Virus record (IMG/VR): IMGVR_UViG_3300027631_003061
Coordinates: 1-30,434 of that record
DNA: 30,434 bases
Direction: 5' to 3' (one strand)
DNA from: a virus
Part shown: positions 12,694 through 30,434 of the stretch, piece after piece
Position numbering within the stretch: position 1 is the first letter of the stretch
Layout of the letters: each line of letters begins with the position of its first letter
Position numbers and translations under genes: made by a program
Notes under the pieces: generated by a model
Database searches by the model: none
What the model was told of the DNA's origin: nothing
The model's input: the letters and a program-made list of their open reading frames with translations, nothing else

Positions 12694-13780
12694 TCCTTAT
12701 ATTGAAGGGAATTGGAAAAAGGTTTACATTTACACGGGGGATGAATACATCTCCCGTATTTTTTCCTTTGAAGACACGATAGTAGAAAGACTAGATACAA
12801 ACACTTCTATAAATAAAATTGCTAATACCATTCAGGGTGTTAATATATTTGAACAGAAGAAATGCGTCAAAATATATAACCCTAACACAGCTCAAGTTAA
12901 AGCAATTTGTGATTCTATTCTTACATCTAAAATTAATGTTGATTATCTTCAAATCTATTGCTGTAATGAATCTTTAGATGGTAGATCTGCATTAGCTACT
13001 AAAGGCAAAGCAGCTGGAAGAATATTCAATTATAGTGCAATTGAATACACTAATGCTTCTGGGTTTTTACGATTTCTAAACGATTGGCTTTTACATAGAA
13101 AGCTTACAATTACTTATGAAGCAGAAAACTGGATTCAAAACAATTCCCCATCCACAATAGTTAAAATGAAATCCGGGGCTACGAAAAAAGAAATAATTGT
13201 TTATGATCTTCCTTTGATCTTTAATGAATTATCTAAGCTTGCAGTTCTGGACAAAAAAGAATTAGATTTAGATGACGTTAAGATTTTTCAATTTCATGAT
13301 CATAACAAGAATATATTTGATTTCTTTAATTTGTGTATGTATGGCAAAGCCTCTGAAATATTAAAAAGCTTGATTGATTTAAATGAATCACATGGCCACC
13401 AGATGATATTGATGATCTTTTTATCTCAATTATTTTTCTATCTTAAAATTGCAGAATATAAAGAAAATAAAATAAACAATACTGATATGCTTGAGGACTT
13501 AAGCTTATCTAAATACATCAAGAAATATCTGGATGTTGATTTTAAAGAAATCGAACAAGATATTCCTACGAAGCAAGTTAATCCAATTAGACTTCAAATT
13601 GCTTATAATCAAACCTATTTATCCACCGAAGAAGTATCAAGATTTATTCAGTCTACTTTGAATGTTGTTGTTGACTTAAGAAACAATTTAAGTACAGAAA
13701 TTGTCTTTCCATACTATTCTTTGTGTTTATCGAACAAGAGATTATATCAAGTCATGTCGTATAACTATACTAATGATTGA
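12674..13780 (+). CDS. holA: DNA polymerase III delta subunit-like clamp loader protein
   Basis: 368 residues if ATG 12674 is used; TTG 12662 and ATG 12680 are alternatives and none has a clear SD. It overlaps dnaN by about 20 bases. The N-terminus 'KKVYIYTGDEYISR' fits the delta start 'xxYLLYGxExYL'. 'FNELSKLAVLDKKELDLDDVKIF' and 'NIFDFFNLCMYGKASEILKSLIDL' followed by 'QMILMIFLSQLFFYLKIAEYK' match the delta pattern 'ELEKLxLY...ITxEDV...NIFDLxDAxxxGDxxKALxxLxxL...ILxxLxxQxRxLLxxK'. Delta opens the clamp and has no ATPase site, consistent with no Walker A here. Together with DnaX it would load the DnaN clamp. Assignment is by pattern and context, not by a search. Confidence 0.75.
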   Translation: MIMKKNNPYIEGNWKKVYIYTGDEYISRIFSFEDTIVERLDTNTSINKIANTIQGVNIFEQKKCVKIYNPNTAQVKAICDSILTSKINVDYLQIYCCNESLDGRSALATKGKAAGRIFNYSAIEYTNASGFLRFLNDWLLHRKLTITYEAENWIQNNSPSTIVKMKSGATKKEIIVYDLPLIFNELSKLAVLDKKELDLDDVKIFQFHDHNKNIFDFFNLCMYGKASEILKSLIDLNESHGHQMILMIFLSQLFFYLKIAEYKENKINNTDMLEDLSLSKYIKKYLDVDFKEIEQDIPTKQVNPIRLQIAYNQTYLSTEEVSRFIQSTLNVVVDLRNNLSTEIVFPYYSLCLSNKRLYQVMSYNYTND

Positions 13781-15251: not shown

Positions 15252-15938
15252 ATGGCTAACTCTAAAGACAACATCATCAATTCATTAGTTCAAGTAGAAG
15301 AAAATTTACCAGAAACTTCTACAAGATATTTTAAAGATATCAAAGAAACTGACAAACCTTTAATTCCTCTACCAGTTGATCATATGGCAGACATCACTTA
15401 CCCTCAATTCATAGAGGTAAGATGTGCTATTTGCTCTTCCCATTTAAGAAACTTAGCAGAACACGTATTTCTTGAAAGCGGAAAAAAATCCCAAGCTGTA
15501 ATTAAGTTTTTTGAACGGCATTATGGTGTAAAGCTAAACTGGACACAAGTTTCAACTCACATGGATCAACATTGTGATTTTAAGAAACTTATGACTTCTG
15601 GTTTAAAGAGTTATGAACATCAAGAAGAATTAATTGCACCTTGGATCTTTAGAGAAAATCAATTAGCCCTTACTGCTTTAATGGTTGAGCTTGATGATGT
15701 TAGAGGAATTGATTGTAGTAAAAATAATGATTTAAAATTGAAAAGAGCTGCAATGGTTGAAAAACTTATTAGCAAGATATTAGACATCAAAGCAAAAAGA
15801 GATGATCAAGGTGTATTTGCAATCAATATTTTTGAGATATTAGCTGAACTTCATGACAAGTTTGAAAGCGAACATGACAAAAGACTAGTTAGAGACGAAC
15901 TTAAAAAGCTTAGAGAAAAGCTTAAGCAAGAAAATTAA
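15252..15938 (+). CDS. Probable terminase small subunit or packaging accessory protein
   Basis: 228 residues. Residues about 58-107 contain CAIC and later a His/Cys pair (STHMDQHCDF), with 'SQAVIKFFERHYGVKLNWTQVSTHM' between them that reads like a helix-turn-helix; together this suggests a small zinc-supported DNA-binding domain. The C-terminal half is long helix and coiled coil ('KLISKILDIKAKRDD', 'ELKKLREKLKQEN'), as expected for oligomerising small terminases. The stop overlaps the large terminase start (TAATG), the usual order terS-terL. No sequence match to a known TerS could be made, so the name rests on position and domain layout. No SD is visible; a -10-like TAAAAT (15237-15242) lies just upstream of ATG. 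Confidence 0.55.
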   Translation: MANSKDNIINSLVQVEENLPETSTRYFKDIKETDKPLIPLPVDHMADITYPQFIEVRCAICSSHLRNLAEHVFLESGKKSQAVIKFFERHYGVKLNWTQVSTHMDQHCDFKKLMTSGLKSYEHQEELIAPWIFRENQLALTALMVELDDVRGIDCSKNNDLKLKRAAMVEKLISKILDIKAKRDDQGVFAINIFEILAELHDKFESEHDKRLVRDELKKLREKLKQEN

Positions 15939-18064
15939 TGAGAAAAAACGCATCCAAAGCTACATTGACACAAGCTGAAGTTAGACAACAACTAATTCAA
16001 CAAGCAAATTTAGCCTCAGAAAAGTTCAAAGACAGTGAATATGCAGAAGAGTTTGCTGATGAAGTTGCACCCAATGTAAGATCTGAAATTGCTCCTCCGC
16101 TAAAACCTGAGAAAACAAGATTTAATCCTGATCAGATTGTTGATATTGTAACTTTTATTGAACATCCTTACTTTTGTAATCTAAAGCCATATCCTTTACA
16201 AAGACTTATTCTAAAATGTTTCTATATGGGGCAAGAAGGTAATACAGATCTAGTAATTCAAGATATCCCAGAAGAAGAAAGAATTGGATGTAGCGGATGT
16301 GTGTGGGACTTTGTAAAGAAAAATGAACATAAATCTGTTGAAATGCATAAACAAAACAGACCTTTCAAAGCTTCATTTTCTGTAATCAATTCGCCTTGTT
16401 TGACTTGTGATCGTATGGATAAAGATATTATCCAACAAAGATTTGAAAATGAAATAGATAACGCAACTAACCCAGATGCATTAAAAAAGATTGAACAACT
16501 TAAAGAAAGACCATACATAGACAACTTTCAAACAGAGAAAGATTTATTATATTCTGAAGAGTTTGATCCAAAATTAAGAATGCAAATTATGGACAAATGC
16601 GAAAACAGATATAAGTTTCAAGAATTAGTACTGGTTCTTGGAAGACGTAGTGGTAAATCCTTCCTTGTTTCTGCAATTGGTTTATATGAACTTTATAGGC
16701 TAATTTCTATGGGGCATCCTCAAGCAAGATATGGCTTGATGGAGTTTGATGCAATTTATCTCTTGAACGTGGCTAAAAATGAGGAACAGGCTAAAAATGC
16801 TATCTTCGCAAAGCTAAAGCAAACTGTTCTAGCTTCACCATTTTTTCAACCTTATATTGGAAAAGATACAGAATTAGAAATGCGTTTCTTTACTGAAAAC
16901 GACCGTAAAGAAAATGAAAGAAGAGAAACTGCGGGTCTTAACTTATTTTCTGGTTCATTAGTTTTAAAGTGCGGTTCTAGTAGTGCTTCAGGTCTCGTTG
17001 GTCTCACTTGTTGGAGTGTGATCATGGACGAAATTGCTGCTATGGCTGGGGACAATCCTGATTCTGGTCTTGACTATGATTTATATAATGATCTAAAGCC
17101 TTCTCTTGCTACTTTTGGTAGAGATGGAAAGATGATGATGCTTTCCAACCCTAAAGGCCCAATTGGATTACTTTATGATTTACATGAAAATAGACAAGAC
17201 GATCCATCCACTCTTGTTATGCGTGGTCCTACTTGGCTTGTAAATCCCAATATTGATAGAGATTTCTTAGAGTCTGAAAAGAAGAAAAATCCTACAGAAT
17301 ATCAAATGCAATATGGAGCAGAGTTTGGAGCTTCATCCTCTGACCCTATGTTTGCTGAAGATGACATTAATAGATTCTTTTCATCTATGTCTATGGTGAA
17401 AAGAGTTGAAAAAGGATTTGGAATGCATGATTATTTCTGCCATTTAGACCCTGCAAGAACATCTGACTACTATGCTTTAGCTGTTGCACACACTGAAGCT
17501 ATTATTGGACAAATGGGTGCAGATGGAAGAATTATGAGAAGAATTGTTATTGATCATATTCATTTCTGGAATCCATTGACAAAGAATCAACCAATTGAAG
17601 AAAAAACTATTGAAGAATATGTTTTAGACTTACACAAAAGATTTAGATTTAGACAAGTAAGCATAGACCAATGGAACTCACAATCTTCAGTAATAAAACT
17701 TCAAAGCTTAGGTGTGCCAATTGTTGAAAAACAATTTAATAAAAACTACAAAGAAAGTATCTACACAGAATTGGCTACGTTAATTAGAGAAGACAGAATT
17801 GATATTTATGATGTTTCTGGTGGAGCATACTTAGATAAATCAGGAAATAAACATCCTTTAAATGAAATTAAAGAAGCTAAATCTCAATTCTTATTTCTTC
17901 AAAAAAAATGGAAAGGTAAAAGATTTGCAATTGAAGCATTGTCTGGATATCACGATGATATTTGTGATGCAGTAGCAGCTGTAGCTTATGAAGCACTATT
18001 TGCTAAGATTGCAAAACAATTACCTAAGTCAAGGACGATTAATATGAGCGGAAGAATAAGATAA
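15938..18064 (+). CDS. terL: Terminase large subunit
   Basis: 708 residues. ATPase: Walker A GRRSGKS (235-241), Walker B VIMDE (361-365) with the catalytic glutamate, and the coupling motif 'MMMLSNPKG' (about 400-408). Nuclease (RNase H fold): D504 in HLDPARTSD, D577 in VSIDQWN and D673/D677 in YHDDICDAV. It uses ATP to pump phage DNA into the prohead through the portal and cuts concatemers. Unusual for the family is an N-terminal region of about 200 residues that carries C118-x2-C121 and C154-x2-C157, a possible zinc site, before the ATPase core. It is directly followed by virion-type genes, with portal about 8.5 kb downstream. Confidence 0.96.
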   Translation: MRKNASKATLTQAEVRQQLIQQANLASEKFKDSEYAEEFADEVAPNVRSEIAPPLKPEKTRFNPDQIVDIVTFIEHPYFCNLKPYPLQRLILKCFYMGQEGNTDLVIQDIPEEERIGCSGCVWDFVKKNEHKSVEMHKQNRPFKASFSVINSPCLTCDRMDKDIIQQRFENEIDNATNPDALKKIEQLKERPYIDNFQTEKDLLYSEEFDPKLRMQIMDKCENRYKFQELVLVLGRRSGKSFLVSAIGLYELYRLISMGHPQARYGLMEFDAIYLLNVAKNEEQAKNAIFAKLKQTVLASPFFQPYIGKDTELEMRFFTENDRKENERRETAGLNLFSGSLVLKCGSSSASGLVGLTCWSVIMDEIAAMAGDNPDSGLDYDLYNDLKPSLATFGRDGKMMMLSNPKGPIGLLYDLHENRQDDPSTLVMRGPTWLVNPNIDRDFLESEKKKNPTEYQMQYGAEFGASSSDPMFAEDDINRFFSSMSMVKRVEKGFGMHDYFCHLDPARTSDYYALAVAHTEAIIGQMGADGRIMRRIVIDHIHFWNPLTKNQPIEEKTIEEYVLDLHKRFRFRQVSIDQWNSQSSVIKLQSLGVPIVEKQFNKNYKESIYTELATLIREDRIDIYDVSGGAYLDKSGNKHPLNEIKEAKSQFLFLQKKWKGKRFAIEALSGYHDDICDAVAAVAYEALFAKIAKQLPKSRTINMSGRIR

Positions 18065-18090
18065 TTATCCGTCTTTGAGGTTCTCAACAC

Positions 18091-19044
18091 ATGTCTTCAA
18101 AAAAGAATATTAAAATAGCTGCTGGTTTTGGTGGTGTTGGAGGTGCAGGCTCTGGTGCTTGGTCTCCTGGTGGTAGTCCTGGCGGCGGAAATTATGGTGA
18201 CTACAACCTGTTCATGACAGACCAAGGCTTTGAATCAATTTTAGCTAGAACCCATAACCCGCCAGATGATGATGCAAACAGAAACTTTGAAGCAAGATTA
18301 GTGCCTTTTCATACATCAAAAGAAGATGATGTATTAGGAAACATTGACATTCTTGATCCAGTTGAAAGAGAAAGAATTAAATTAAGAGCTAAATTGAGAG
18401 ACCATAAGGCTTTAATGGAAGCTGAAGCTAATAAAAGCAAGCAAACTGATAATAAAGAATCTTACATCTCAATGGAAGAATCACTTTCCAGTAGAAGAAA
18501 ATACAAAGAAAAGCAAAAGTTTGATTATGAAGATGAAACTCCTGAACAGATTAAACCTGAAAGAGTGCATTATTCTTCAAAACAATTTACAAAGATAGCT
18601 AAGGATTTTACAACTAGAAGAAGAGACAATATTACCCCTTCTGGTCCTGATGATAATCCATTCTATGATGCACAATTTTCAAACGCACACCTTGGTAAAA
18701 CTCCATTATTAACCGAAGGCGCAGATCTTGATAAATATTTTGCAGAACAAAGAACAGAATACACACCTGATCAAGATGGTTTTAGAAATGAACCAACCAT
18801 CTTAGATACATTGGATCCAGATGCAGCATACCCATCATTCTCAGGTAAAAGTTCTGCAGAAAATTATGATCCTAATGAAAATGACAAAACAATAGAGCAA
18901 CAACTACATACACAAGAATATGCATTGAACAATGAATATGATAGACATAAACAAGGTGATGAAGAAGTTGGCTTTGATGATAATCCTGGATTGAAAGGAC
19001 AAGGCAATTTCCCAAGAGTACCATGGGCAGGATCTAATTTGTAA
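18091..19044 (+). CDS. Hypothetical hydrophilic protein after terminase
   Basis: 317 residues, not recognised. The N-terminus is glycine-rich (GFGGVGGAGSGAWSPGGSPG) and the rest is highly charged and low in hydrophobic residues, suggesting a largely unstructured protein. Near residue 270 is DKTIEQQL, the same short motif found several times in the protein encoded at 24449-26017. GAGG lies ten bases before the ATG, a slightly long SD spacing. Position between terminase and other morphogenesis genes suggests a head or scaffold-related role, which is inference. Confidence 0.7.
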   Translation: MSSKKNIKIAAGFGGVGGAGSGAWSPGGSPGGGNYGDYNLFMTDQGFESILARTHNPPDDDANRNFEARLVPFHTSKEDDVLGNIDILDPVERERIKLRAKLRDHKALMEAEANKSKQTDNKESYISMEESLSSRRKYKEKQKFDYEDETPEQIKPERVHYSSKQFTKIAKDFTTRRRDNITPSGPDDNPFYDAQFSNAHLGKTPLLTEGADLDKYFAEQRTEYTPDQDGFRNEPTILDTLDPDAAYPSFSGKSSAENYDPNENDKTIEQQLHTQEYALNNEYDRHKQGDEEVGFDDNPGLKGQGNFPRVPWAGSNL

Positions 19045-19053
19045 AATATATGT

Positions 19054-20178
19054 ATGGTATATGACTATTTGATTATTGGAGCCGGATTATTCGGCTCCAT
19101 TTTTGCATATGAAGCAAATAAAACAGGGAAAAAAGTTTTAGTTATTGATCAAAGAAATCATATCGGCGGAAACTGCTACACAGAGCCGCATGAAGATTAT
19201 CATATTCACAAATATGGTCCACACATATTTCATACATCCAAAAAATATATTTGGGACTATTTAAATGAGTTTACAGAATTCAATAATTATTCTCATAGGG
19301 TTAAAGCTATAAACAAAGGCAAAACATATTCTTTGCCAGTTAACCTATCAACAATTAATCAAATATGGCCAGAAGTAAATACACCTGATAAAGCCATAGC
19401 AAAAATACAATCTGAAATTGTTCCTTGCGAAAATCCTAAAAACTTAGAAGAACATATTTTATCATTTGTTGGCCCCACTATTTATGAAACCTTAATATAT
19501 GGGTACACGAAAAAACAATGGGGTAAAGAACCTAAATATTTACCATCCTCAATCATTAAAAGATTACCAATTAGATATACATATGACGATAGTTATTATC
19601 CAGACCAAGATATTTATCAAGGCATACCAGTAAACGGATATACACCAATATTTGAAAAAATGCTTAAGGGTATCGATATTGAATTAAATGTTGATTTCTT
19701 TAGTGACAGATCATATTGGGAATCTAAAGCTCATAAAATAGTGTATACCGGTCAAATTCAAAGATATTTTGATTATATGTATGGAGATTTAGAATATAGA
19801 TCTTTAGATTTCAAAAATTATGAAGTTATGACTGATTTTCAAGGATGTTCACAAATGAATTATCCTGATGAAAATACATCCTGGAATAGAATAATCCAAC
19901 ACAAGCATTTCACAAAAAGTAAATCTAAATACGACTTGATTACTTATGAATATTCAAAAAAATATGATTCAAAAGATTTAACTAGTCAACCATATTATGC
20001 AGTTAATGATGAAACAAACAATCTAATTTATGAGAGATATAAAGAATATTACCAAAAGTTTACTAAGAACTTAATTATTGGTGGACGCTTGGGGAATTAC
20101 AGATATTACGATATGGATATGACTATTGCGAATGCATTGAACGTATGTAAAAGAGAATTAGCAGGAAATTCAGTTTAA
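19054..20178 (+). CDS. glf: UDP-galactopyranose mutase
   Basis: 374 residues, the usual length of the bacterial enzyme. FAD-binding start 'DYLIIGAGLFGSIFA' with G9-x-G11-x2-G14, then the family stretch 'RNHIGGNCYTE', 'YGPHIFHTS', 'GYTKKQWGKEP', 'IKRLPIRYTYDDSYY', and the C-terminal 'GGRLGNYRYYDMDMTIANAL'. It converts UDP-galactopyranose to UDP-galactofuranose, the donor for galactofuranose in surface glycans. In a phage this could alter the host envelope or decorate virions, but no galactofuranosyl transferase is seen in the window. It interrupts the morphogenesis genes as a metabolic cargo gene. No SD; TAAAAT (19042-19047) ends seven bases before ATG, so it may be leaderless and separately expressed. 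Confidence 0.95.
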   Translation: MVYDYLIIGAGLFGSIFAYEANKTGKKVLVIDQRNHIGGNCYTEPHEDYHIHKYGPHIFHTSKKYIWDYLNEFTEFNNYSHRVKAINKGKTYSLPVNLSTINQIWPEVNTPDKAIAKIQSEIVPCENPKNLEEHILSFVGPTIYETLIYGYTKKQWGKEPKYLPSSIIKRLPIRYTYDDSYYPDQDIYQGIPVNGYTPIFEKMLKGIDIELNVDFFSDRSYWESKAHKIVYTGQIQRYFDYMYGDLEYRSLDFKNYEVMTDFQGCSQMNYPDENTSWNRIIQHKHFTKSKSKYDLITYEYSKKYDSKDLTSQPYYAVNDETNNLIYERYKEYYQKFTKNLIIGGRLGNYRYYDMDMTIANALNVCKRELAGNSV

Positions 20179-20197
20179 AAATTATAAAACACAAATT

Positions 20198-20656
20198 ATG
20201 CATAGAAGTGAAATTGTTAGATTATTAAAACTTGCACACTCATTAGACAAGCGGGGGAAACTTCGTGAGTCTGACAAAATAACTTTCAAACTTACTAAAA
20301 TTGCTCAATATTATGGCAACTTCATGTCCACCAGCACAGAAAACAGAGTTGTGCCTTTCGATGATACAGCAGAAGATGTTGAAATTGACGAAAAAAGACT
20401 AGATAAGCAAGATAGATTTAGAGTTCCTGAGTCCAAAGATGATGAAGCTTCTAATCCAGAATTATTCAATACAGAAGCACAACTTCATGGTGCTTCTGGG
20501 TATGGAATTACTTATGAAGATCCAGCTCCAGAGTCAAAAAATATTGGTTTAGATGACAATGTAAGCCGTGGTGATTTAAGTGAATTTTTATTCGAAAATA
20601 CTTATGAACAAAATGTTTCAGATGGCAATGGTCACTTGAACAGAAACCCAAGATAG
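20198..20656 (+). CDS. Hypothetical protein, 152 residues
   Basis: Not recognised. The N-terminal 40 residues form a charged helix pair 'EIVRLLKLAHSLDKRGKLRE' then 'SDKITFKLTKIAQYYG'; the pattern 'xxxA..LDxxGxxxESDxI..kL.KIA' resembles a short motif that recurs in structural proteins of other large phages. The remaining two thirds is acidic and probably disordered, ending HLNRNPR. No SD; TATAAA (20183-20188) lies about ten bases before ATG. The stop is TAG. Likely a minor virion or morphogenesis protein on position alone. Confidence 0.65.
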   Translation: MHRSEIVRLLKLAHSLDKRGKLRESDKITFKLTKIAQYYGNFMSTSTENRVVPFDDTAEDVEIDEKRLDKQDRFRVPESKDDEASNPELFNTEAQLHGASGYGITYEDPAPESKNIGLDDNVSRGDLSEFLFENTYEQNVSDGNGHLNRNPR

Positions 20657-20665
20657 GAGAAAATT

Positions 20666-21142
20666 ATGCCCTTACCGATTCAATCTTTAAACAACTTTCC
20701 TGAAGATAATGACAATGTACAAATGTCTTCTTTAGGTCTTTCAGATATGCAAATTCAACTTTTAGGTTTTTCCAGTCCTGTTAGAGAAGCAAAAGTAATT
20801 GTAAGCCAAAAGCACATTGATTTACTTAAAGAAATTGAGAAGAATCAAAATGATGTAGTTACAGCTGCAAATATGATTAATAACCTCAAGGATGCTAAGG
20901 TTTGCAATGTTCCAAAAACAATTAATGACAATGATCTTCTTGCTCTTAAAACAGCTGGATTATTGACAGGAAGTGGTAGAACTGTTGCACTTACTTCTAA
21001 AGGCAGAGTTGCTCTTAGAGATGCTTACTTGAAAGATCCAGTTAATGAGTTTAAGAAAGCTAGAAAGAAAGAAAAGTTTGATTTGACAGAAGCTAAAAAT
21101 GTTAAAGTTGCTTCCAAAAAATCAACATTCAAGAAGATATGA
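20666..21142 (+). CDS. Hypothetical protein, 158 residues, ending in frame with the DUF192 region
   Basis: Good SD (AGGAGA) and ATG 20666. Residues about 50-125 look like a winged-helix fold: 'SQKHIDLLKEIEKNQNDVVT' and 'LLALKTAGLLTGSGRTVALTSKGRVALRD' read as helix, helix and wing, as in small transcription regulators. The tail is lysine-rich (FKKARKKEKFD, ASKKSTFKKI). Its TGA (21140-21142) is followed in the same frame, without another stop, by the DUF192 coding region, so readthrough would fuse the two. Could be a DNA-binding protein acting in the head or a regulator; unproven. Confidence 0.7.
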   Translation: MPLPIQSLNNFPEDNDNVQMSSLGLSDMQIQLLGFSSPVREAKVIVSQKHIDLLKEIEKNQNDVVTAANMINNLKDAKVCNVPKTINDNDLLALKTAGLLTGSGRTVALTSKGRVALRDAYLKDPVNEFKKARKKEKFDLTEAKNVKVASKKSTFKKI

Positions 21143-21217
21143 CTGACAGAAGATTTTAAAGGTGAGTTTGAATTAAGACTCCTTGCAGATAATGAAAAAT
21201 TATTACAAAAGGGTCTA
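21143..21217 (+). other. In-frame upstream part of the DUF192 domain lacking a normal start codon
   Basis: Between the TGA at 21140-21142 and ATG 21218 the frame is open and encodes 'EFELRLLADNEKLLQKGL', which matches the conserved first strand and RGLM motif of DUF192 proteins. No ATG, GTG or TTG is in frame; only CTG at 21143 could start it. ATG 21139-21141 is one frame off: removing the single base 21142 would join it to this frame (ATG CTG ACA GAA) and would also move the upstream gene's stop to the following TGA. Confidence 0.65.
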
Positions 21218-21520
21218 ATGCATTCTAAACCTTTAGAAGATTTTGAAGTTGCTTATTTTATCTTTCCAACAAAAGGCAAGCATTCATTTTGGAATAAGAA
21301 TGTTTCATATCCATTAACATTAGCATTTTTAAACTCAGATCATGAGATTGTTGACTTTAAAGATATGGAAGCAGAACAAACTAAAAGTGTTTCTCCAGAC
21401 AGTAATTTTGTAAAATATGTAGTTGAAGCTAATAAAGATACATTTGAAAAACTGGGTATTGAAGTTGGAGATAAATTAGAATACAAGGATAACAAAATAG
21501 TTTTCCGTAAAAGTAATTAA
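21218..21520 (+). CDS. DUF192 (UPF0127) family protein, start uncertain
   Basis: From ATG 21218 the protein has 100 residues, with AAGGG four bases upstream. 'YFIFPTKGKHSFWNKNVSYP', 'LTLAFLNSDHEIVDFKDM', 'NFVKYVVEANKDTFEKLGIEVGDKL' follow the DUF192 plan 'MLFVFPxxGxxxFWMKNTxxPLDIAFLDxxxxVVxI...YVLELxAGxxxxxGIxxGD'. DUF192 is a small beta-barrel domain of unknown function found in bacteria, archaea and some phages. The ATG falls within the family's RGLM motif, so starting there would delete the first strand; the true product probably includes bases 21143-21217. No signal peptide is seen, unlike many bacterial members. Confidence 0.75.
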   Translation: MHSKPLEDFEVAYFIFPTKGKHSFWNKNVSYPLTLAFLNSDHEIVDFKDMEAEQTKSVSPDSNFVKYVVEANKDTFEKLGIEVGDKLEYKDNKIVFRKSN

Positions 21521-21642
21521 TAATGCCTAAAAAGCAGGGTTAAAAGTATTTTTTATAGAAGGTTTTTAATAAGTATCAATTGCTTACTTAATCACAATCT
21601 TTAAAAAGATTAAAAGGATTGAACTTGAGGAGAAATTAAACA

Positions 21643-22623
21643 ATGGCAGATAGAATTTTCCCAAACAAGTATCAAGAATCTGGATTGGATTCTGAGCTTG
21701 TTTTTACGGGCATCAATTGGGATGCATTTGGTCAAAGACTTGCCGCTATGGAAGAAGGCGAGGATGAAGGCAAAAAGGAAGTCCCAGATGAGCTTATGAA
21801 AGCACTTCATGAGAAATATGAAGGCGCATTTGACAATATTGCTGAAGGATCTGACCAAGGTCATGACATGAAAAATGCTAAATGGGCTTCAGTTGAGGAA
21901 GATGACAAAGAATCTGACGAAGATGACGAAGATGAGTCTGAAGAAGATGAAGACGAAGAATCTGAAGAAGATGAAGATTCCGATGTTGACACTGATGAAG
22001 ATGATGAAATGACAGAAGAATCTGAAATGAAGAAGAAAGCTTCAAAGATTGTTTTCACAAACCCTTCTCAACTTTCTGCAGAAGCAGTAGAAGCTGCTGT
22101 AGCAAATGGTGATGTAAGATTGGCAAAAACAATTCTTGCTGCAAGACATGAAAGAAGATTAAGATTAGCAAGTCAAATTGAAACTAACATCAAAACTGCA
22201 CAAGCGCACGATCTTAAGCTTGCACAAAGAAGAGCTTACAGAGAGAATCTTGTAAAGACTGCTGCAAACACTCAAAAGAAGACTGTTAAGACAGCAAAGA
22301 CAAATGATTCATTTGCAAAAGCATCACAACTCAACAATAACGCTAAGAAAGCATTTGCTGCTAAAGCAATTGCATCTGGCTTCCCAGTTGAATATGTAGA
22401 AGCTATGCTTAACACCACTGTTGCAGAAAAGCCAGCTGTTGTTGAAATTAAGCAAGTTATGGCTTCTAATTTGAATACAAATGTTAAGAAGACAGTTGTA
22501 GCAAATATGATTAAAGAATCTGAATTAGATTCAGCAAATATCAATAGATGCAAAGATTATTGGAAGAATGAGCTCGGTTACGGCGACCCAGAATGGGTAG
22601 ACGAGTTATTTAAAAATAGTTAA
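21643..22623 (+). CDS. Hypothetical protein with long acidic tract, possible scaffold or virion protein
   Basis: 326 residues with the strongest SD of the region (GAGGAGA, 21627-21633), suggesting high expression. Residues about 85-130 are almost all Asp, Glu and Ser. The next 150 residues are rich in Ala, Lys and helices ('AVEAAVANGDVRLAKTILAARHERRLRLA'), and the end is an ordered 'CKDYWKNELGYGDPEWVDELFKNS'. K-[TKV]-A-x groups recur (KKKAS, IKTAQ, VKTAA, VKTAK). Such acidic plus helical layout is common in scaffold and internal head proteins, but no family match is made. The 120-base gap before it has a small inverted repeat (AATCTTT/AAAGATT near 21600) and no confident promoter. Confidence 0.75.
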   Translation: MADRIFPNKYQESGLDSELVFTGINWDAFGQRLAAMEEGEDEGKKEVPDELMKALHEKYEGAFDNIAEGSDQGHDMKNAKWASVEEDDKESDEDDEDESEEDEDEESEEDEDSDVDTDEDDEMTEESEMKKKASKIVFTNPSQLSAEAVEAAVANGDVRLAKTILAARHERRLRLASQIETNIKTAQAHDLKLAQRRAYRENLVKTAANTQKKTVKTAKTNDSFAKASQLNNNAKKAFAAKAIASGFPVEYVEAMLNTTVAEKPAVVEIKQVMASNLNTNVKKTVVANMIKESELDSANINRCKDYWKNELGYGDPEWVDELFKNS

Positions 22624-22631
22624 TTAAAATC

Positions 22632-22680
22632 CTCAAGTTCAAAATATCCCAGAGCGAAAGTTCTGGGATATAGACTTGGG
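22632..22680 (+). promoter_or_regulatory. Strong GAAA-capped RNA hairpin between structural genes
   Basis: The core is a 12-bp stem, ATATCCCAGAGC (22644-22655), GAAA tetraloop (22656-22659), GTTCTGGGATAT (22660-22671), with one G-U pair. An outer stem pairs CTCAAGT (22632-22638) with ACTTGGG (22674-22680). No T-run follows, so it is unlikely to be a plain terminator. It may be an RNA processing, stability or translation control element in front of the gene at 22699. Confidence 0.65.
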
Positions 22681-22698
22681 AAAGAATAGGATGCAAAA

Positions 22699-23511
22699 AT
22701 GAGCAAATTCAGAAAAGTTTCAGAAACAGAAAACATTCCATCATACATGGAAAAGAAATTCGTTGGCGCTAGTTATGAAGCTTTTGATGATCCATATGCT
22801 GAATTGAAGCAAAATTCTACAGAAAATAGAATCAAGATTTCTAAGCAAACAATTGGTAATCAAAAAACAGCAGAAAACTTCACAAAGTCATGGGAAAAGA
22901 TTCAAGGCCCATCTGTATACGAAGAACCAAAATACAACTTCAACAATGAAGATCTTTTTGGCACTAATACTATCAGAAGAGCAGGATCTGATTATGATGA
23001 AGGCATGAACGCCAGAACCATTACATCAGGTTTGAAGGCTTACTCTGCAGATGAATATATGAATGCAATGCTCAGCAAAAGCGCTTCTATTTTTAACCCA
23101 GATATGATTGCCCTTTCCGAAGAGTTTTTAAATAGCCAAGAAAGCACAAGCCAACAAGCTATGGTTAATCATGCTCAAAGAAGAGAAGCACAAGCTACAA
23201 AGCATGCTTCATGGGAAGAAAGACAACTCAATCAAATTAGAAAATCTAGTGTCGTAACAAACAGAGCGCACTCTGTTTTAAGAACTGCTAACGAAGGCCA
23301 ACATAGTTCACAATTTGGCATGGTTGACTCAGATGCACTAGATAATAGAGAAACACAAAGAGTTGCTATGCACGAGAAATCAAGAGAGCAAAGACTTGGA
23401 TTAAAGAAGAGTCATACAGAAGATCTTGAAAATAGAGCAGTAAATAGAGCTCAAACAATTCATGACATTTACAATAATGTGAGTATCAATTTAGATATAG
23501 ACAAAATTTAA
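22699..23511 (+). CDS. Hypothetical protein, 270 residues
   Basis: Not recognised. A polar, mostly helical protein: 'IPSYMEKKFVGASYEAFDDPY' near the start, a Gln/Glu-rich middle (EEFLNSQESTSQQAM, HAQRREAQATKHASWEERQ), and an Arg/Lys-rich end. AGGA lies near 22687-22690, upstream of ATG 22699. The gene is preceded by a strong RNA hairpin and followed after one base by the next gene. Structural or scaffold role inferred from position only. Confidence 0.7.
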   Translation: MSKFRKVSETENIPSYMEKKFVGASYEAFDDPYAELKQNSTENRIKISKQTIGNQKTAENFTKSWEKIQGPSVYEEPKYNFNNEDLFGTNTIRRAGSDYDEGMNARTITSGLKAYSADEYMNAMLSKSASIFNPDMIALSEEFLNSQESTSQQAMVNHAQRREAQATKHASWEERQLNQIRKSSVVTNRAHSVLRTANEGQHSSQFGMVDSDALDNRETQRVAMHEKSREQRLGLKKSHTEDLENRAVNRAQTIHDIYNNVSINLDIDKI

Positions 23512-23512
23512 T

Positions 23513-24442
23513 ATGGAAAGGAAATATTCTTTATCTGGTCTTGCTTCTAACCCTGCAATGGGAATTAGCAATCTTGATCTAAATGTAGTAGGAGCTGATG
23601 GTTCTCAAGGAAATCCAGAAAGTTCTGATGGCATTTCTATTAAAGATATGCTTGTAATTTTGGATAAGTTTGAAAATTCAAATAGCCAAAATATAAATGA
23701 TATCAAAACTGATTTAGAAGAAATATTTCCTCAAATTACAAGAGAAGAATATCGAAAGATGGTTTCTCAGCTTATGAACTCAATTGATTATGCTAATGAT
23801 CCAAAGAAGAGAACTAAGAATCCTTCAACTGGTAAATATGACCCAACCCCTCAAGAATTAGCCAGCAGAATGAAGCATAAGTTAAATCATATTAAAGATG
23901 TTAATTCACAGCAATCTGAAAAAGTAGGTAGCACAATTATGGCTTTCAATAGTAGACAAGCACAAGTAAAGAAAAAGAAAAAAACTAGAGGCAATCCTTT
24001 CCGTGTTTTAATGGGGAAAGTAGGAAAGCTTTTGGATCATGGACTTGAAAAGAAAGACATTGTTAGATATTTAAGTAAACAAAAATACTGGAATGGTGAA
24101 ACAATTGAACGTGCTGTTGACATTGTAAGAGACTACAACAAGAAGATTAAAAATGACTCCAAGGATGAAAAGGATGAAAAACCAAAAAAAGCATCCCAGG
24201 AATCAAATGTCAAAGTTGCTTCTTACGATTATGATACTAAACCAGATTTTGGAAAGAGATCAACACCAGAATTAATTTCAAGAGCATATTATTTAGATGA
24301 TTTATTAGCTTATAACAAAGACACTCCTCAAGGTGATTTTAAAGAAGCAGCTAGTAAAGAAGGTGCTAAAGAAGAGCTTGCTAAAGTTAAAACTGAACTT
24401 AAAAATAGAGGAATGGATCTTAAAAACTTAGATTTAGGGTAA
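23513..24442 (+). CDS. Hypothetical protein, 309 residues
   Basis: Not recognised. Residues 45-85 are helical ('ISIKDMLVILDKFENS', 'IKTDLEEIFPQITREEYRKM'), followed by a very basic region (VKKKKKTRGNPFRVLMGKVG) that could bind DNA or RNA, and a helical 'KLLDHGLEKKDIVRYLSKQK'. The end is charged and repeats KKAS/KVAS. It starts one base after the previous stop, with no SD, so translation is probably coupled. Head or scaffold role is inference. Confidence 0.7.
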   Translation: MERKYSLSGLASNPAMGISNLDLNVVGADGSQGNPESSDGISIKDMLVILDKFENSNSQNINDIKTDLEEIFPQITREEYRKMVSQLMNSIDYANDPKKRTKNPSTGKYDPTPQELASRMKHKLNHIKDVNSQQSEKVGSTIMAFNSRQAQVKKKKKTRGNPFRVLMGKVGKLLDHGLEKKDIVRYLSKQKYWNGETIERAVDIVRDYNKKIKNDSKDEKDEKPKKASQESNVKVASYDYDTKPDFGKRSTPELISRAYYLDDLLAYNKDTPQGDFKEAASKEGAKEELAKVKTELKNRGMDLKNLDLG

Positions 24443-24448
24443 GGAAAA

Positions 24449-26017
24449 ATGGAAAAGAAAAATTACACAATAAAAATGAAACTTCAATCACATAACCCTA
24501 AGACAGTTGGAAAATTAATTGGCGGTACAGGGATTTTAGATATGCTCCAGAAAATTATGGGCAATCTTTCACCTATGCACTCTATGCCAGAAACACCATT
24601 CCATGATTTAGAAGATGGTGATATTGATGCTTCAGACCCAGTAGGCGCAAAACTTTTAAATATGGGTGGTCCAAAGCATGTTGTCAAAATCTTCAGAATG
24701 CAATCACCAGAAGATATGCATCACGCTATGAAGCATTTAGCAAACACCCTTTCTGAAACAAGAAATGCTTATATTAGAAAAGAACTAAGACATTTATTTG
24801 CCTCCATTAACTGTGCATTAGGTAATGAAAACGATGCATTTACAATGGAAAGAATTGCAAGTAATTTACCAAAGAAATCCACTGGTTTATGGCAAGCAGA
24901 ATCTATTGCAACAGTTGAAAAATTGATGAAAGTTGCAAATATTAAAGAATATGATGCTCTTGTCGAAATTGATAAAATGCTAAGCAATGGTAGTTATGCT
25001 CATATAGCTAACGCATCAAAAATTGCTAAAAATATGTATGATGCAATTTCAACTCCAAGAAATACCAGAGTTGCTTACACTACATTAGCAACTACAGACG
25101 GTGAACCAATTTTGATGTGTCCTAAAGGCAAAGTGGAGTTCGGCTCTGCTGTTCCTATGGAATCATCAAAGTGTAGATGGAATTGTATTGATTCAAGATT
25201 AGATGCTGACGGAAATGTTAGATGTAATTATGAAGCTTGGATGAAACAATCATTCCAATCCCATGATGTTGTAATGGGAAGATTAGACACAACTAGACAT
25301 CCTGATAATGAAGCCAATTTATTAAATATCAAAGATGGCGAAAGAAAAACTCATGAAGATGAAGTTGGCTATGAAAAGATGTTTGAAGACAGTGATCTTA
25401 AAGCAACCAAACTCAGAAAAGAAAAACCTAATACAGATGACAGCATGGAAAAACAATTAGCTGATTTGCCTGCAGTTGGTTATGGTCACACTGTTGATGA
25501 CAAGAAACTTAATAAAAGAACTGCTCAATCAGATCATTCTAAAACTATAGAAGATCAATTACCACGTAAGGGTGAGCAAAAGAAATCTTTATTTGATCTT
25601 CTTGTAGACAAATATAATACAAAAGTTAATTTAGATGAAAAGATTGAAGTTAATTTAGAAGACAATGCTGGACTTTACGACAGAAAAGGCGAAGAAGATA
25701 AATCCACCATTGAAAAAATTAATGAAATGAAAGAAAATCCTGTTAATGTATCTGAAGAAATTAACGAAGATGCTGGTGACGGTGACGAAAAAAGTTTATC
25801 AGATCATTTAAATAAAACAGCATCTAAGGATGAAAAGTCTTTTGATTCAATGCTAGAAGATAAAAGAACTAACAAAAAATTAGATAAAACAATTGAAGAA
25901 ATGCTTGAAGATGATTCAGAGAATTGGGGACATCAATTTTCTGATGATGATTTGAAAGATTTTGCAAAACAATTAGGATTAGATTATATTTTAGAAGAAT
26001 CAAGAGAAGAAGACTAA
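24449..26017 (+). CDS. Hypothetical protein with repeated short helical motifs
   Basis: 522 residues; AAGGAAAA precedes ATG 24449. The N-terminal half looks folded, with many methionines ('PEDMHHAMKHLANTLSETRN') and cysteines near residues 228-256 (MCPKG, KCRWNC, RCNYE) that might bind metal or form a redox site. The C-terminal 200 residues are acidic and carry at least six versions of a short motif: DSMEKQL, KTIEDQL, KSLFDLL, KSLSDHL, KSFDSML, KTIEEML. The related KTIEQQL occurs in the protein at 18091-19044. The repeats look like linear binding peptides. The stop overlaps the next ATG (TAATG). No family recognised. Confidence 0.72.
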   Translation: MEKKNYTIKMKLQSHNPKTVGKLIGGTGILDMLQKIMGNLSPMHSMPETPFHDLEDGDIDASDPVGAKLLNMGGPKHVVKIFRMQSPEDMHHAMKHLANTLSETRNAYIRKELRHLFASINCALGNENDAFTMERIASNLPKKSTGLWQAESIATVEKLMKVANIKEYDALVEIDKMLSNGSYAHIANASKIAKNMYDAISTPRNTRVAYTTLATTDGEPILMCPKGKVEFGSAVPMESSKCRWNCIDSRLDADGNVRCNYEAWMKQSFQSHDVVMGRLDTTRHPDNEANLLNIKDGERKTHEDEVGYEKMFEDSDLKATKLRKEKPNTDDSMEKQLADLPAVGYGHTVDDKKLNKRTAQSDHSKTIEDQLPRKGEQKKSLFDLLVDKYNTKVNLDEKIEVNLEDNAGLYDRKGEEDKSTIEKINEMKENPVNVSEEINEDAGDGDEKSLSDHLNKTASKDEKSFDSMLEDKRTNKKLDKTIEEMLEDDSENWGHQFSDDDLKDFAKQLGLDYILEESREED

Positions 26018-26529
26018 TGTGGTACAGAATTAAAAAGGCACAGTTTGGAGGAGGGGTTGTAAAATCCACTCCTCTTTTGCCTGTTTCAAATCAACAAATT
26101 GAACAAGAACCTCAAGAAGAATTGAAAGATTCTCCTGAATTCAAGAATTATGATGAATTAAATGAAGATTTACTAACAATTCTTGAAGATATGGGACAAA
26201 CTTTAGAAGAATATTATGAAATGTCTATGGAACAGCAAAAAGAACTTTGGGATCTTTTAATAAAAAGACCTCATCAAATTGTTGACCAAGAAGCTTCAAA
26301 AAGAAATAGATTAAAATCACCTTATCATGATGCTTTTATCACTACTGAAGCTGCTTTAGAAGCTTCCAGAGATTCAGCTATCAATGTAGATCCAATCAAT
26401 AAGCAATCTTCTGAAGCTGGAAATGGCATCTTACTTCAAACAGGTATTGGTTCACCATCGTTCTTTGCATCTTCCAAATCAAATCCTCTTTTTACTGGTG
26501 ATTTGCCTTCAGCAAGAACACTTATATAA
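26017..26529 (+). CDS. Hypothetical protein, 170 residues
   Basis: Not recognised. It starts 'MWYRIKKAQFGGG', then a proline/serine stretch, then an acidic helical part (LNEDLLTILEDMGQTLEEYY) and an Asn/Ser-rich tail. ATG 26017 overlaps the previous stop. Placed immediately before portal, where many phages have a small head protein or portal partner; this is only a positional guess. Confidence 0.65.
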   Translation: MWYRIKKAQFGGGVVKSTPLLPVSNQQIEQEPQEELKDSPEFKNYDELNEDLLTILEDMGQTLEEYYEMSMEQQKELWDLLIKRPHQIVDQEASKRNRLKSPYHDAFITTEAALEASRDSAINVDPINKQSSEAGNGILLQTGIGSPSFFASSKSNPLFTGDLPSARTLI

Positions 26530-26549
26530 TAATACAATCTCAATGTGGG

Positions 26550-26557
26550 TATAAATA
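26550..26557 (+). promoter_or_regulatory. TATAAATA -10-like element before portal
   Basis: TATAAATA matches the T4 late -10 consensus. Its six-base core ends seven bases before ATG 26562, so a transcript starting there would be leaderless. No -35 and no SD are seen. Such an 8-mer is expected several times by chance in 30 kb this AT-rich. Confidence 0.35.
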
Positions 26558-26561
26558 AAAT

Positions 26562-28937
26562 ATGATTTCCAAGAATGCACCTACATTAGCAAACGTCTTA
26601 AAAACAGCAGCGCAAAATGTATCGGGAGAGAAAGTTTCATCAGCAGAATATTCGGGTCAATATGCTTATTCTAGAATTACAAGTGGATTGGGCCCTTCTG
26701 TAAACTCTAAAACTGCACAAATGTCCGGTGGTAATAATACAATGACCACCGCACCAAACTTCTATTCTCCTTTCTTAACACCTACATCTTTTCAAATCCC
26801 AAATGCTAGACGTGAAGTTTATCTCTGGGCAAACTGGTGGAGAAACAACGAGCCAAAAATTGCTGCAGCCATTAACTTCTATTCCAATTATCCATTCTCT
26901 GGTTGGAAATTGGAATGTTCTTCATCATATGTAAAAGATTATTTTGAAAAGTTAATTGAAAAAATTAACTTTCAAAAATGGCTTCCTGAAATCTCAAAGG
27001 TTTATCACTTACTTGGAGATGCATTTGTTCTTCTTTCATTAGATTGTGAACACTGCCATGGATCAAACTGGGACGAAGAAAAGAATGAGGCTTGTAAACA
27101 TGATGGAGCAACATGGAAATCTGTATGTTTATTAAATCCTGATAGTGTTCTTAAGTCCCCAAGCATGATTGATCAGCCTGGAATGTACACTTACAGACCA
27201 TCCCCTGAAGAAATCAAAATTGTAAATGAGAGACAACCAAGAGAATATTATGATGCTATTCCTGACAATGTAAAGAAACTTATATTGAAAGGCGATCCTA
27301 TTCCACTTTCTCCTATTTCTATTCACCATTTCAAACATGGATCTAACCCTTGGGAAGATTATGGTACTCCACTTATCAGACCATTATTTCCAACATTAGC
27401 ATATAAAGATAAATTAAGACAATCTCAATGGATTGTTGCAGAAAGACATATCCTTCCAGTTAAAGTTGTAAAGGTAGGAAATGATCAAAGGCCAGCGTCA
27501 CAAGAAGACCTCGATTCGGTTCAAGATGAGTTGGCTGCAATTGCTAATGACCCTAACCTTACACTAGTCACTCACCATGCTTTTGACTTTGATTATGTTG
27601 GCGCCTCTGGAAAAGTACTTCAATTAACTAATGAATATGAATTAATTGATCAAGAAATCCTAGATGGTGTAATGCTCAACAAAGCTCTCCTCAATGGTGA
27701 AGGTCCAACATATGGTAATGCTCAAGTTGGTCTCCTTGCAATGGCTCAAAGATTAGAGACATTTAGAAGAGAAGTGGCAAGATGGGTTGAACAATGTGTA
27801 TTCAAACCTGTTGCTGAATGGAATGGTTTTACAATTGAAGGCGAAAGAGGACAAGAAGAAATTATCTTTCCTACAATTAAGTTTGATGATCTTCAATTAA
27901 GAGATGACACCGGTAAGTTGCAGATGCTTGTTACTGCTAACTCAAATGGTGTTATTTCAAACATGACTCTTATTGAGCAATTTGGACTAGACCCTGATCA
28001 AGAAATTGAAAGACTTAGATTTGAACAAGGGTCTAACTTTGTTCAAAACCCAGCATTTGGCAATTTGGATACTAATAATGGTTTCCAATCTGGTGATGTA
28101 ACTGGACAAGGATTTGGTGCTGGTGGTGGGGATATGGGTATGGGTGCTCCTGGTATGGGAATGACACCTCCTCCTCCTGGCGGTATGGGAGGCATGGGTG
28201 GTGGAATGCCAGGTATGCCTATGGCTAATAACTCCATACAAAATTATAGATTAGCTTCTTCTATTATGAACGAACTCTACTATGAAAACTTGGAAAATAA
28301 TTCAAGTTTGATTAATGTTAGAGTTGCTGGAAGAAGATTTAAATCAGCAGCACATGAAGGCTTTGTAAGAAGTTTATCACCTGTTTCTGGACGTGGTAGG
28401 CTTGGATCTGTACCTGAAACTTATGATGGTTTTGGTGGTGTTTTAAGTCCATTACCTTTTGGCGGTCCTTATTCAAAAGCATTAAATTATGCCGCAGAAT
28501 ATGAACAATATAGCTTTGCAAATAGTGAAGATACAAGAACTGTATATGCTGCAAAGAAAATGGAAAAACCACCAACTCAAATGTTTACTTCAATAGAAAA
28601 GAAACTTTATGGTCTTTTACTTTCTATTAACCTGCCGTATCCATTGTATGCCCAATATTCAGCCGGTCCTACTATGGATTATCAATTAGATGCAGCAATT
28701 CCAACACTTAAGATTGGAGTCGAAGCAGATGGTGAAATTTGGCATAACAATCCTGAAAAAATTGCAAAAGATAAAAGAAGAGATATTGAACTTGCTTCTA
28801 ATGGATGGGTTATGTTGAGATTTACAGATAAAGAATTAAATGATCATCCACAAGATGTATTGAATGTTGTTATGCAAGCAATACGAAAGAAAAGTGGAAA
28901 ATCTCAAGCACAAGATCCAGATGAAATAAAGATTTAA
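26562..28937 (+). CDS. Portal protein fused to a C-terminal DUF559/Vsr-like nuclease domain
   Basis: 791 residues. Residues about 60-500 read as a portal: 'YLWANWWRNNEPKIAAAINFY', a 'FKHGSNPWEDYGTPLIRPLF' segment, 'TLAYKDKLRQSQWIVAERHI', and 'ARWVEQCVFKPVAEWNGF', typical of portals that form the DNA entry ring. Residues about 510-556 are a Gly/Met/Pro-rich linker (GGMGGMGGGMPGMP). Residues 676-776 match DUF559, a PD-(D/E)XK nuclease: 'TSIEKKLYGLLL', YAQYS, D710 in DYQLDAAIP, E721-x-D723 in GVEADGEIWH, then 'KDKRRDIELASNGWVMLRFT'. A single open frame covers both parts. The portal should sit at the head vertex and contact terminase; the nuclease role is unknown. The portal call is from pattern and context; the nuclease call is stronger. 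Confidence 0.85.
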   Translation: MISKNAPTLANVLKTAAQNVSGEKVSSAEYSGQYAYSRITSGLGPSVNSKTAQMSGGNNTMTTAPNFYSPFLTPTSFQIPNARREVYLWANWWRNNEPKIAAAINFYSNYPFSGWKLECSSSYVKDYFEKLIEKINFQKWLPEISKVYHLLGDAFVLLSLDCEHCHGSNWDEEKNEACKHDGATWKSVCLLNPDSVLKSPSMIDQPGMYTYRPSPEEIKIVNERQPREYYDAIPDNVKKLILKGDPIPLSPISIHHFKHGSNPWEDYGTPLIRPLFPTLAYKDKLRQSQWIVAERHILPVKVVKVGNDQRPASQEDLDSVQDELAAIANDPNLTLVTHHAFDFDYVGASGKVLQLTNEYELIDQEILDGVMLNKALLNGEGPTYGNAQVGLLAMAQRLETFRREVARWVEQCVFKPVAEWNGFTIEGERGQEEIIFPTIKFDDLQLRDDTGKLQMLVTANSNGVISNMTLIEQFGLDPDQEIERLRFEQGSNFVQNPAFGNLDTNNGFQSGDVTGQGFGAGGGDMGMGAPGMGMTPPPPGGMGGMGGGMPGMPMANNSIQNYRLASSIMNELYYENLENNSSLINVRVAGRRFKSAAHEGFVRSLSPVSGRGRLGSVPETYDGFGGVLSPLPFGGPYSKALNYAAEYEQYSFANSEDTRTVYAAKKMEKPPTQMFTSIEKKLYGLLLSINLPYPLYAQYSAGPTMDYQLDAAIPTLKIGVEADGEIWHNNPEKIAKDKRRDIELASNGWVMLRFTDKELNDHPQDVLNVVMQAIRKKSGKSQAQDPDEIKI

Positions 28938-28956
28938 TTCTTCTTGAATGTGTACA

Positions 28957-28984
28957 AAAAACCTATCGATTTCGATAGGTTTTA
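28957..28984 (+). terminator. Intrinsic terminator after portal
   Basis: AAAACCTATCG (28958-28968), ATTT loop, CGATAGGTTTT (28973-28983). The remaining gap to the next gene (28985-29084) has AGGAGA at 29068-29073 and no confident promoter. Confidence 0.9.
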
Positions 28985-29084
28985 TTGTTTGAACAGGATT
29001 TTTAGAGAAAAACTGAGAAGAGAAATTAGAGTAAATGTCTAAAATTGTTTCAGCATTAAACAATTGCAGGAGAAAAATTTATTT

Positions 29085-30434
29085 ATGTACAGAGTAGCAA
29101 TAGGTGGGCCTATAACAATTAATAGTTTTCTCACCGAACATGACAGAAATACTGCAAGAGAACATATGCTTAAAACTGCTTCCAAACAAATGAGAGAGGC
29201 TGCTAAGATTGGTTTGCAATCTTTGTATGCAGATCCTTCAGAAGTTTTAGAAAAATATAAAGATTTCGATATTGTCAAAGAAATGAAAGCTCGTAAAGAT
29301 GCTAAGCTTCTTTGGGTAAGAGCTAGATCCATTGATGCAGATACGGTCAATCATAATGGAGACTATTTTTCTAAAGCTGAATTATTAAAAGAAGTTGAAG
29401 TTAAGGGCGAGAAAATCCCAGCTTATAAAACATTCGAAGGTGTACCAATTTACACCAACCATAAGAATGATGATATTGAGCAAGCTAAAGGCATGGTCGT
29501 TTATGCTGAATGGGAAGAATCTGAAAATTGTGTTTATTGTACTTTTTTCGTAGATGAAGAAGCTTATCCTGATATTGCTAGAAATATCCGCACTGGTGTA
29601 ATTCATGATGTATCAATGGGCTGTTCGGTTGCCTATGGAATATGTTCTAAGTGCGGAAATAAAGCATACACAGAAAAAGAATATTGTTCTTGTCTCAAAA
29701 AGTGGAAAGGCAAAAAGGAAAACGGTACAGGCAAATCCATTTATGAAGAAAACTATGATTTAAAATTCATTGAGCTTTCTTGTGTAGGTGATGGTGCCTT
29801 TGATACTTGTGAAATTAAAGAAATCTACGATGTTGACGATATTCTTAATGCTGCCACTGATGCTGAAAAGAAAGCCTCTGAATTAATTGCAAATATTGTG
29901 GTTGCTCAACAAGGCGCTCCATCAGACCCAACTGTAAGACACGAATATGAAGAATGTTTAAGAGTAGCAGAAAACACCGCTAGAACTTCAATTAAATTAG
30001 CTCAGTCTGCCGGTACTTTAGTAGGCGGACAATTGATGGCTGGAGAAGGCGCAAACCAAAACTCTACAGTCCAAGCAGTTTTAGGAGCTTTGGGAATTGA
30101 TCCTAGAGCTGGTTTAAATATTTTAGATCTTATCAATTTATCACTTAACTTTTTAGAAGTAGCTGTGATGAATATGTTTGCACGTAAAGACAATGTTGAT
30201 TTAGTACACGTAGGCAAAATTACTAAATCAATGGCAGATCTTCAATCAACAATGCAAGACATGATTGATGATGGAATTGACACTGGAGGAGGTCAAGGAC
30301 AACAACCTCTAAACCAACAACAATTACAACAACAGCCTCAGCAACAACCACAACAGCCTCAACAAAATAATGTTGCACCTGCTAATTATATGCCAGCAGG
30401 AAATGTAGGCAGAATGATTGAGCCTGCATTATTC
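29085..30434 (+). CDS. Probable prohead maturation protease with scaffold-like tail (3' end outside window)
   Basis: 450 codons are present and the frame is open at the right edge. ATG 29085 has AGGAGA eleven bases upstream, rather long. Residues about 75-245 resemble prohead proteases of large phages: 'LLWVRARSIDADTVNHNGDYF', 'FEGVPIYTNHKND' with H126 as candidate catalytic His, 'FFVDEEAYPDIARNIRTGVI' leading to DVSMGC with S177 as candidate nucleophile, and 'FIELSCVGDGAFD'. After the serine comes a cysteine set (C187, C190, C201, C203), a likely zinc ribbon. Helices follow and then a Gln/Pro-rich stretch near residues 405-428. It would cut scaffold and head proteins before DNA packaging. 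The protease call is from motif pattern and position; the third catalytic residue is not assigned. Confidence 0.7.
   Translation, partial: MYRVAIGGPITINSFLTEHDRNTAREHMLKTASKQMREAAKIGLQSLYADPSEVLEKYKDFDIVKEMKARKDAKLLWVRARSIDADTVNHNGDYFSKAELLKEVEVKGEKIPAYKTFEGVPIYTNHKNDDIEQAKGMVVYAEWEESENCVYCTFFVDEEAYPDIARNIRTGVIHDVSMGCSVAYGICSKCGNKAYTEKEYCSCLKKWKGKKENGTGKSIYEENYDLKFIELSCVGDGAFDTCEIKEIYDVDDILNAATDAEKKASELIANIVVAQQGAPSDPTVRHEYEECLRVAENTARTSIKLAQSAGTLVGGQLMAGEGANQNSTVQAVLGALGIDPRAGLNILDLINLSLNFLEVAVMNMFARKDNVDLVHVGKITKSMADLQSTMQDMIDDGIDTGGGQGQQPLNQQQLQQQPQQQPQQPQQNNVAPANYMPAGNVGRMIEPALF

Follow-up and report, generated by a model that had tools for sequence, protein, structure and literature searches.

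A predicted Vsr-like nuclease domain on the portal protein of a clade of uncultured giant bacterial viruses

Analysis of a viral sequence from IMG/VR (record IMGVR_UViG_3300027631_003061; 30,434 nucleotides, analysed over its whole length and hereinafter called the window) recovered a portal protein with a C-terminal DNase-type domain of the EDxHD branch, a fusion fixed across an uncultured clade of giant bacterial viruses. This arrangement is apparently new: portals fused to PBECR (a predicted RNase), 2H, InPase and Nudix domains have been reported (PMC5512222, PMC9503650), and none of the literature searched describes a DUF559/EDxHD nuclease joined to a portal. A preceding sequence-only reading had known of no described portal-nuclease fusion of this kind, a statement that stands for DUF559/EDxHD domains but has to be narrowed in view of the other enzymatic portal fusions. 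The ORF is a real portal-nuclease fusion, and its translation bears out the single uninterrupted frame, the coordinates and the three-part layout of portal body, linker and nuclease that had been proposed. It sits in the head-gene cluster, between the gene for the terminase large subunit (TerL) and that for the head-maturation protease, which is about 1,400 aa long in relatives (1405 and 1402 aa). The features referred to below, all on the + strand, are:

26562..28937 (+): portal-nuclease fusion gene, 791 aa; a single open frame, with the same fusion in relatives
26790..27902 (+): portal fold (wing, stem, clip, stem, wing), residues 77-447; AF2 model compared with solved portals
27903..28061 (+): residues 448-500, helices past the wing, at the place of the portal crown; secondary structure and position behind the aligned portal core
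28062..28244 (+): Gly/Met/Pro-rich flexible linker, residues 501-561 (about); composition, variable length, dN/dS about 0.3
28248..28259 (+): RLAS, residues 563-566, candidate head-maturation protease site; [KR]-hydrophobic-A-[S/A/F] in 42/42 aligned portals
28260..28583 (+): fast-evolving spacer, residues 567-674; mean identity 46% (residues 557-664), dN/dS 0.28
28587..28898 (+): EDxHD (DUF559/Vsr-like) nuclease domain, residues 676-779; Pfam, AF2 pLDDT 83, VIA matches
28596..28598 (+): E679, invariant, in stand-alone homologues too
28689..28691 (+): D710, invariant in 42 portals and in a 26-row alignment with stand-alone homologues
28722..28730 (+): E721-A722-D723, invariant in 42 portals
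28743..28745 (+): H728, invariant
28770..28772 (+): D737, invariant
15938..18064 (+): terminase large subunit with its own nuclease aspartates intact (D504, D577, D670/D671); PHROG 2, E 7e-28
29064..30434 (+): start of the head-maturation protease gene, which runs past the window end; PHROG 18299 (head maturation protease), E 2.5e-17

Sequence profiles and structure comparison agree on the N-terminal part. The Pfam model Portal_Mu matches residues 219-463 (E=1e-10, above the cut-off) and PHROG portal family 16240 matches residues 46-428 (E=3e-39). An AF2 model of the full protein, for which 36 relatives were used, has low overall confidence (pLDDT 58, pTM 0.41); within it, residues 77-447 align with a Pakpunavirus portal over 312 residues (VIA Z 17.7), the VIA matches listed are portals throughout, including those of T4, lambda, SPP1 and G20c, and Foldseek against solved portals gives E 4e-8. 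The portal-like body proposed for the first 500 residues is thus recovered as a portal fold. In the secondary structure of the model, three helices follow residue 447 (450-461, 467-473 and 478-495), and these probably correspond to the portal crown. The best match in the phage collection is the portal gp14 of Bacillus (Lysinibacillus) phage G (31.6% over residues 41-496), which also has a Gly/Pro-rich tail but is devoid of the nuclease, no member of this nuclease family being detected anywhere in the phage G genome. A further phage G-like portal (L185:3998-7042) has a long C-terminal extension with a Cys-rich motif that is MuF-like by eye; Pfam finds only the portal in it.

The C-terminal domain is matched by the Pfam models DUF559 (residues 703-774, E=1e-7) and MTES_1575 (residues 706-774, E=3e-8). 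An AF2 model of residues 665-791 alone reached pLDDT 83 and gave VIA Z-scores of 14.0 to NGO0050 (3hrl), 13.6 to the catalytic domain of I-Bth0305I (3r3p) and 11.0 to Vsr (1cw0); Foldseek pairs the model with structures of the same three proteins, and the sequence profile of the domain also finds NGO0050 and I-Bth0305I. Structure prediction, which had been suggested as a check, returned a portal fold within the full-length model and a Vsr-like nuclease fold for the C-terminal part. I-Bth0305I (3r3p), NGO0050 (3hrl) and E. coli Vsr (1vsr, 1cw0) share both fold and catalytic pattern with the portal domain but are free-standing or homing/repair enzymes rather than parts of a virion protein; some free-standing relatives resemble Vsr- or homing-type enzymes and are a plausible source of the domain. 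At two loci (L145:3791-4213 and L147) a small free-standing EDxHD nuclease has at its N-terminus a hydrophobic stretch resembling a membrane anchor.

The catalytic residues run in the order E...D...ExD...H...D. Across the 42 aligned portals, which extend to about 50% identity, E679, D710, E721, D723, H728 and D737 never vary, and E679, D710, D723, H728 and D737 are also kept in the stand-alone homologues of four loci (L145, L147, L149 and L150) in a 26-sequence alignment. The complete DUF559-like domain with D710, E721 and D723 that the sequence-only reading described is present, with these residues invariant and with Pfam and fold in agreement; E679, H728 and D737, which it had overlooked, are invariant as well. 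Its assignment to PD-(D/E)XK is right at the superfamily level but not in detail: the ExK lysine is absent in 42 of 42 portals, which sets the domain outside the classical PD-(D/E)XK definition and in the Vsr-like EDxHD branch. From its sequence we predict a catalytically competent-looking DNase.

A first IMG/VR scan yielded 69 loci; as part of its search patterns fell within or immediately ahead of the nuclease, it was redone by alignment with patterns chosen in the portal only. In this portal-seeded scan 58 of the 59 complete portals bear the nuclease domain, and when both scans and locus L139 are combined 68 of 69 complete portal ORFs (57 distinct) carry it in the same frame, near-duplicate contigs being included in both counts. 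In the sole exception (L052) a single in-frame TGA follows the linker (L052:6678-6680), with the nuclease frame intact beyond it; recoding is unlikely since other genes at that locus showed no in-frame TGA, and an error or nonsense mutation is more likely. Copies of the fusion that are 100% identical occur in other contigs (L001, L030), and it is also present in contigs of 300-379 kb. The recommended search of related phages thus found the fusion to be general, and its presence in many independent contigs rules out an assembly artefact at the join. Even a portal at 40% identity (L258) still bears the nuclease, whereas phage G and nine related portals (about 31% identity) have no fused nuclease. 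Nine large relatives (up to 379 kb) each encode the nuclease once, as part of the portal, and phage G not at all. Searches of cellular genomes for relatives gave no match. Portal tblastn against cultured phages covered at most 61% of the query and found no fused portal at that sensitivity; the nuclease-domain matches listed for cultured phages lie in helicases, beside methylases or in hypothetical proteins, with no portal among them, and of the 50 matches listed in predicted viral structures, many of them without names, none is named a portal. In two of the fused portals (L139:848-4354 and L258:3878-7150) an intein-like insert with a LAGLIDADG_3 match occupies the same portal position.

Simple Nei-Gojobori counts over non-independent pairs of moderate synonymous divergence give the portal body and the nuclease median dN/dS values of 0.085 and 0.077, and the linker and the spacer values of 0.31 and 0.28, so that the two connecting segments evolve at about four times the rate of the domains they join. 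The linker varies from 28 to 69 residues between fixed points across relatives, with a mean Gly/Pro/Ala/Met content of 72%. The nuclease is therefore kept like a core part of the virion and unlike a diversifying weapon: the attack on host or rival DNA that had been considered is, in the form of a rapidly diversifying weapon, disfavored by so low a nuclease dN/dS (median 0.08). Few components of tailed phages are as conserved as the portal. A DNase fused to it and maintained with equal care implies a core DNA-cutting step at the portal that is done otherwise, or is absent, in model phages.

Within the otherwise fast-evolving stretch, a [KR]hA motif (h, hydrophobic) stands directly behind the linker in 42/42 portals, with the basic residue and the alanine constant and the hydrophobic residue variable. 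The pattern [KR]-hydrophobic-A-[SAQ] was first spotted post hoc in the portal and protease of the window and counted afterwards: the head genes of the window (15938-30434) contain 19 occurrences against 2.6 expected, those of two relatives (G004, G005) 25 against 4.6 and 23 against 4.7, and the first 25 kb of phage G 16 against 3.3. Most control regions lie nearer to expectation, with mild enrichment outside the head genes too. When all patterns of this shape were ranked with none singled out beforehand, [KR]hAS or [KR]hAQ took the top or the second place in all four head sets. In L258, the most distant of the fused portals, no clear instance of the motif follows the linker. Prohead proteases of giant phages process portals, at other motifs (PMC5694885). 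The [KR]hAS after the linker may be a recognition site of the head-maturation protease; it could instead be an ordinary trait of alanine-rich helices. If it is a protease site, the processed proteins of the clade and of phage G become predictable from sequence. At one locus (L052:8206-9344) about 1.1 kb interrupts the protease gene at Gly-Cys, possibly another intein.

The orientation of portal and nuclease was taken from homologous portals, the full-length AF2 model (pLDDT 58) being too poor for this purpose. Stem, wing and crown of the T4 portal lie inside the capsid (PMC9958956), and when T4 gp20 carries a C-terminal GFP, the GFP is found in the prohead interior and such heads still package DNA (PMC10893049). 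Because the C-terminus and crown of the T4 portal are inside the capsid, by homology the tether and nuclease should face the lumen. The most likely reading, to which we assign a probability of roughly 0.4, is of a lumen-housed DNase on a flexible tether that is freed by the protease and ejected with the genome. With the portal C-terminus at the crown side, about 12 nucleases, one for each subunit of the usual dodecamer, would face the capsid interior; more tentatively, the neighboring head-maturation protease might cut the [KR]hAS behind the linker and so free the nuclease within the head; and, again tentatively, the freed nuclease might exit with the genome at infection and act on intracellular DNA, that of the host being the simplest target. 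Somewhat more doubtful is the same picture drawn for the clade as a whole, in which a dozen portal-built DNases would be stored in the lumen, freed at the shared [KR]hAS and sent into the host as a core nuclease that stays constant, not as a variable toxin.

Enzymatic domains fused to portals have been read as packaged and injected (PMC5512222, PMC9503650), and the present portal fits that class in having a C-terminal enzymatic domain on a head protein. The portal/MuF fusions (PBECR, 2H, InPase, Nudix, ART) likewise place an enzymatic domain on a head protein of the portal vertex, with packaging and injection proposed (PMC5512222, PMC9503650), but they belong to other enzyme classes, whereas here the domain is a DNase-type EDxHD nuclease and constant across the clade. 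Against delivery speaks that carried effectors are often variable, and this nuclease is constant. The main difficulty is the protection of the packaged genome, which a lumenal DNase would adjoin; no clade-wide DNA modification emerged among the three families searched: N6/N4 methyltransferase families occur in 2 of the nine relatives, and thymidylate-synthase-type and C5 methyltransferase families in none of the nine. Within these three families, a modification-protected genome as a general rule was rejected, only the N6/N4 families having been found, and those in 2/9. The window also encodes a PurA-like adenylosuccinate synthetase of the short phage type (10586-11581, 331 aa; in 5/9 relatives). 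A 2-aminoadenine genome by way of this gene was likewise rejected: it scores far better to PurA than to PurZ, below both cut-offs, and is present in only 5/9 relatives. If the nucleases are lumenal, the question is how the packaged genome survives beside active enzymes, and the portal would offer a natural scaffold for loading enzymes into phage heads.

Close behind delivery ranks a possible, if tentative, role in packaging, in which the tethered domain would remove branches from the viral DNA itself, or trim an end of it, at the portal while the head is being packaged or completed. With similar reserve it can be pictured as a covalent version of the T4 endonuclease VII-gp20 pair or of the T4 head-completion nuclease gp4. 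T4 gp49 binds the portal gp20 and releases stalled branched DNA (PMC3485210, PMC9958956), and packaging also requires the DNase gp4 (PMC7824862); both set a nuclease at the portal during packaging (PMC3485210, PMC9958956, PMC7824862), but each is an unrelated protein in its own right, with no fusion to the portal. The constancy and strong conservation of the domain suit such a role, and a structure-specific or nicking enzyme would pose no threat to the packaged genome. The main difficulty is that portal C-termini lie in the capsid lumen, away from the place where branches stall; moreover, phage G-like relatives do without the domain, TerL retains its nuclease, and RusA-like resolvases occur in 7 of the nine relatives, 4 of them above the curated cut-off. 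The branch resolution suggested by the sequence-only reading is hence possible, but lumenal C-termini and RusA-like resolvases encoded elsewhere in most relatives weigh against it.

The residues of the three acidic nuclease motifs of TerL (D504, D577, D670/D671) are kept in the window and in 9/9 relatives, which rules out replacement of the TerL nuclease by that of the portal, and the RusA-like genes in 7/9 relatives weaken the case for the portal domain as the sole Holliday-junction resolvase of the phage. As the TerL motifs are kept and most relatives have RusA-like genes, the portal nuclease need not replace either enzyme. Searches of the nine relatives, of which several records are fragments, detected no RuvC, endonuclease VII, Hjc or RecU. 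Three TerL proteins (L164, L165 and L169; records G002, G003 and G009) carry some 370 extra residues in the ATPase region, close to residue 240; by position and length this insert is intein-like.

A nuclease that stays attached in the lumen, nicking or ending packaged DNA or gripping a DNA end and never being released, is unlikely. The lumenal position and the long flexible tether would accommodate it, and release from the portal is itself a proposal only; however, this analysis found no portal precedent, and action on packaged DNA would demand tight control. Far less probable is a selfish homing endonuclease domain at the 3′ end of the portal gene: the closest solved structures include a homing enzyme, free-standing relatives look Vsr- or homing-like and some of these portals contain LAGLIDADG inteins, but the clade presents no empty site (68/69 complete portals are occupied, and homing elements are usually patchy), the position is constant and the dN/dS is as low as that of the portal. 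A catalytically dead structural or DNA-binding tail is equally improbable, every EDxHD residue being kept in 42/42 aligned portals.

Two further features of the gene neighborhood were observed. A gene for a UDP-galactopyranose mutase (GLF; 19054-20178) lies within the head-gene cluster, as it also does in the relative G004, and genes for DnaX-like (8742-9809), DnaN-like (11578-12693) and HolA-like (12662-13780) proteins provide this phage with what looks like a clamp and clamp loader of bacterial type.
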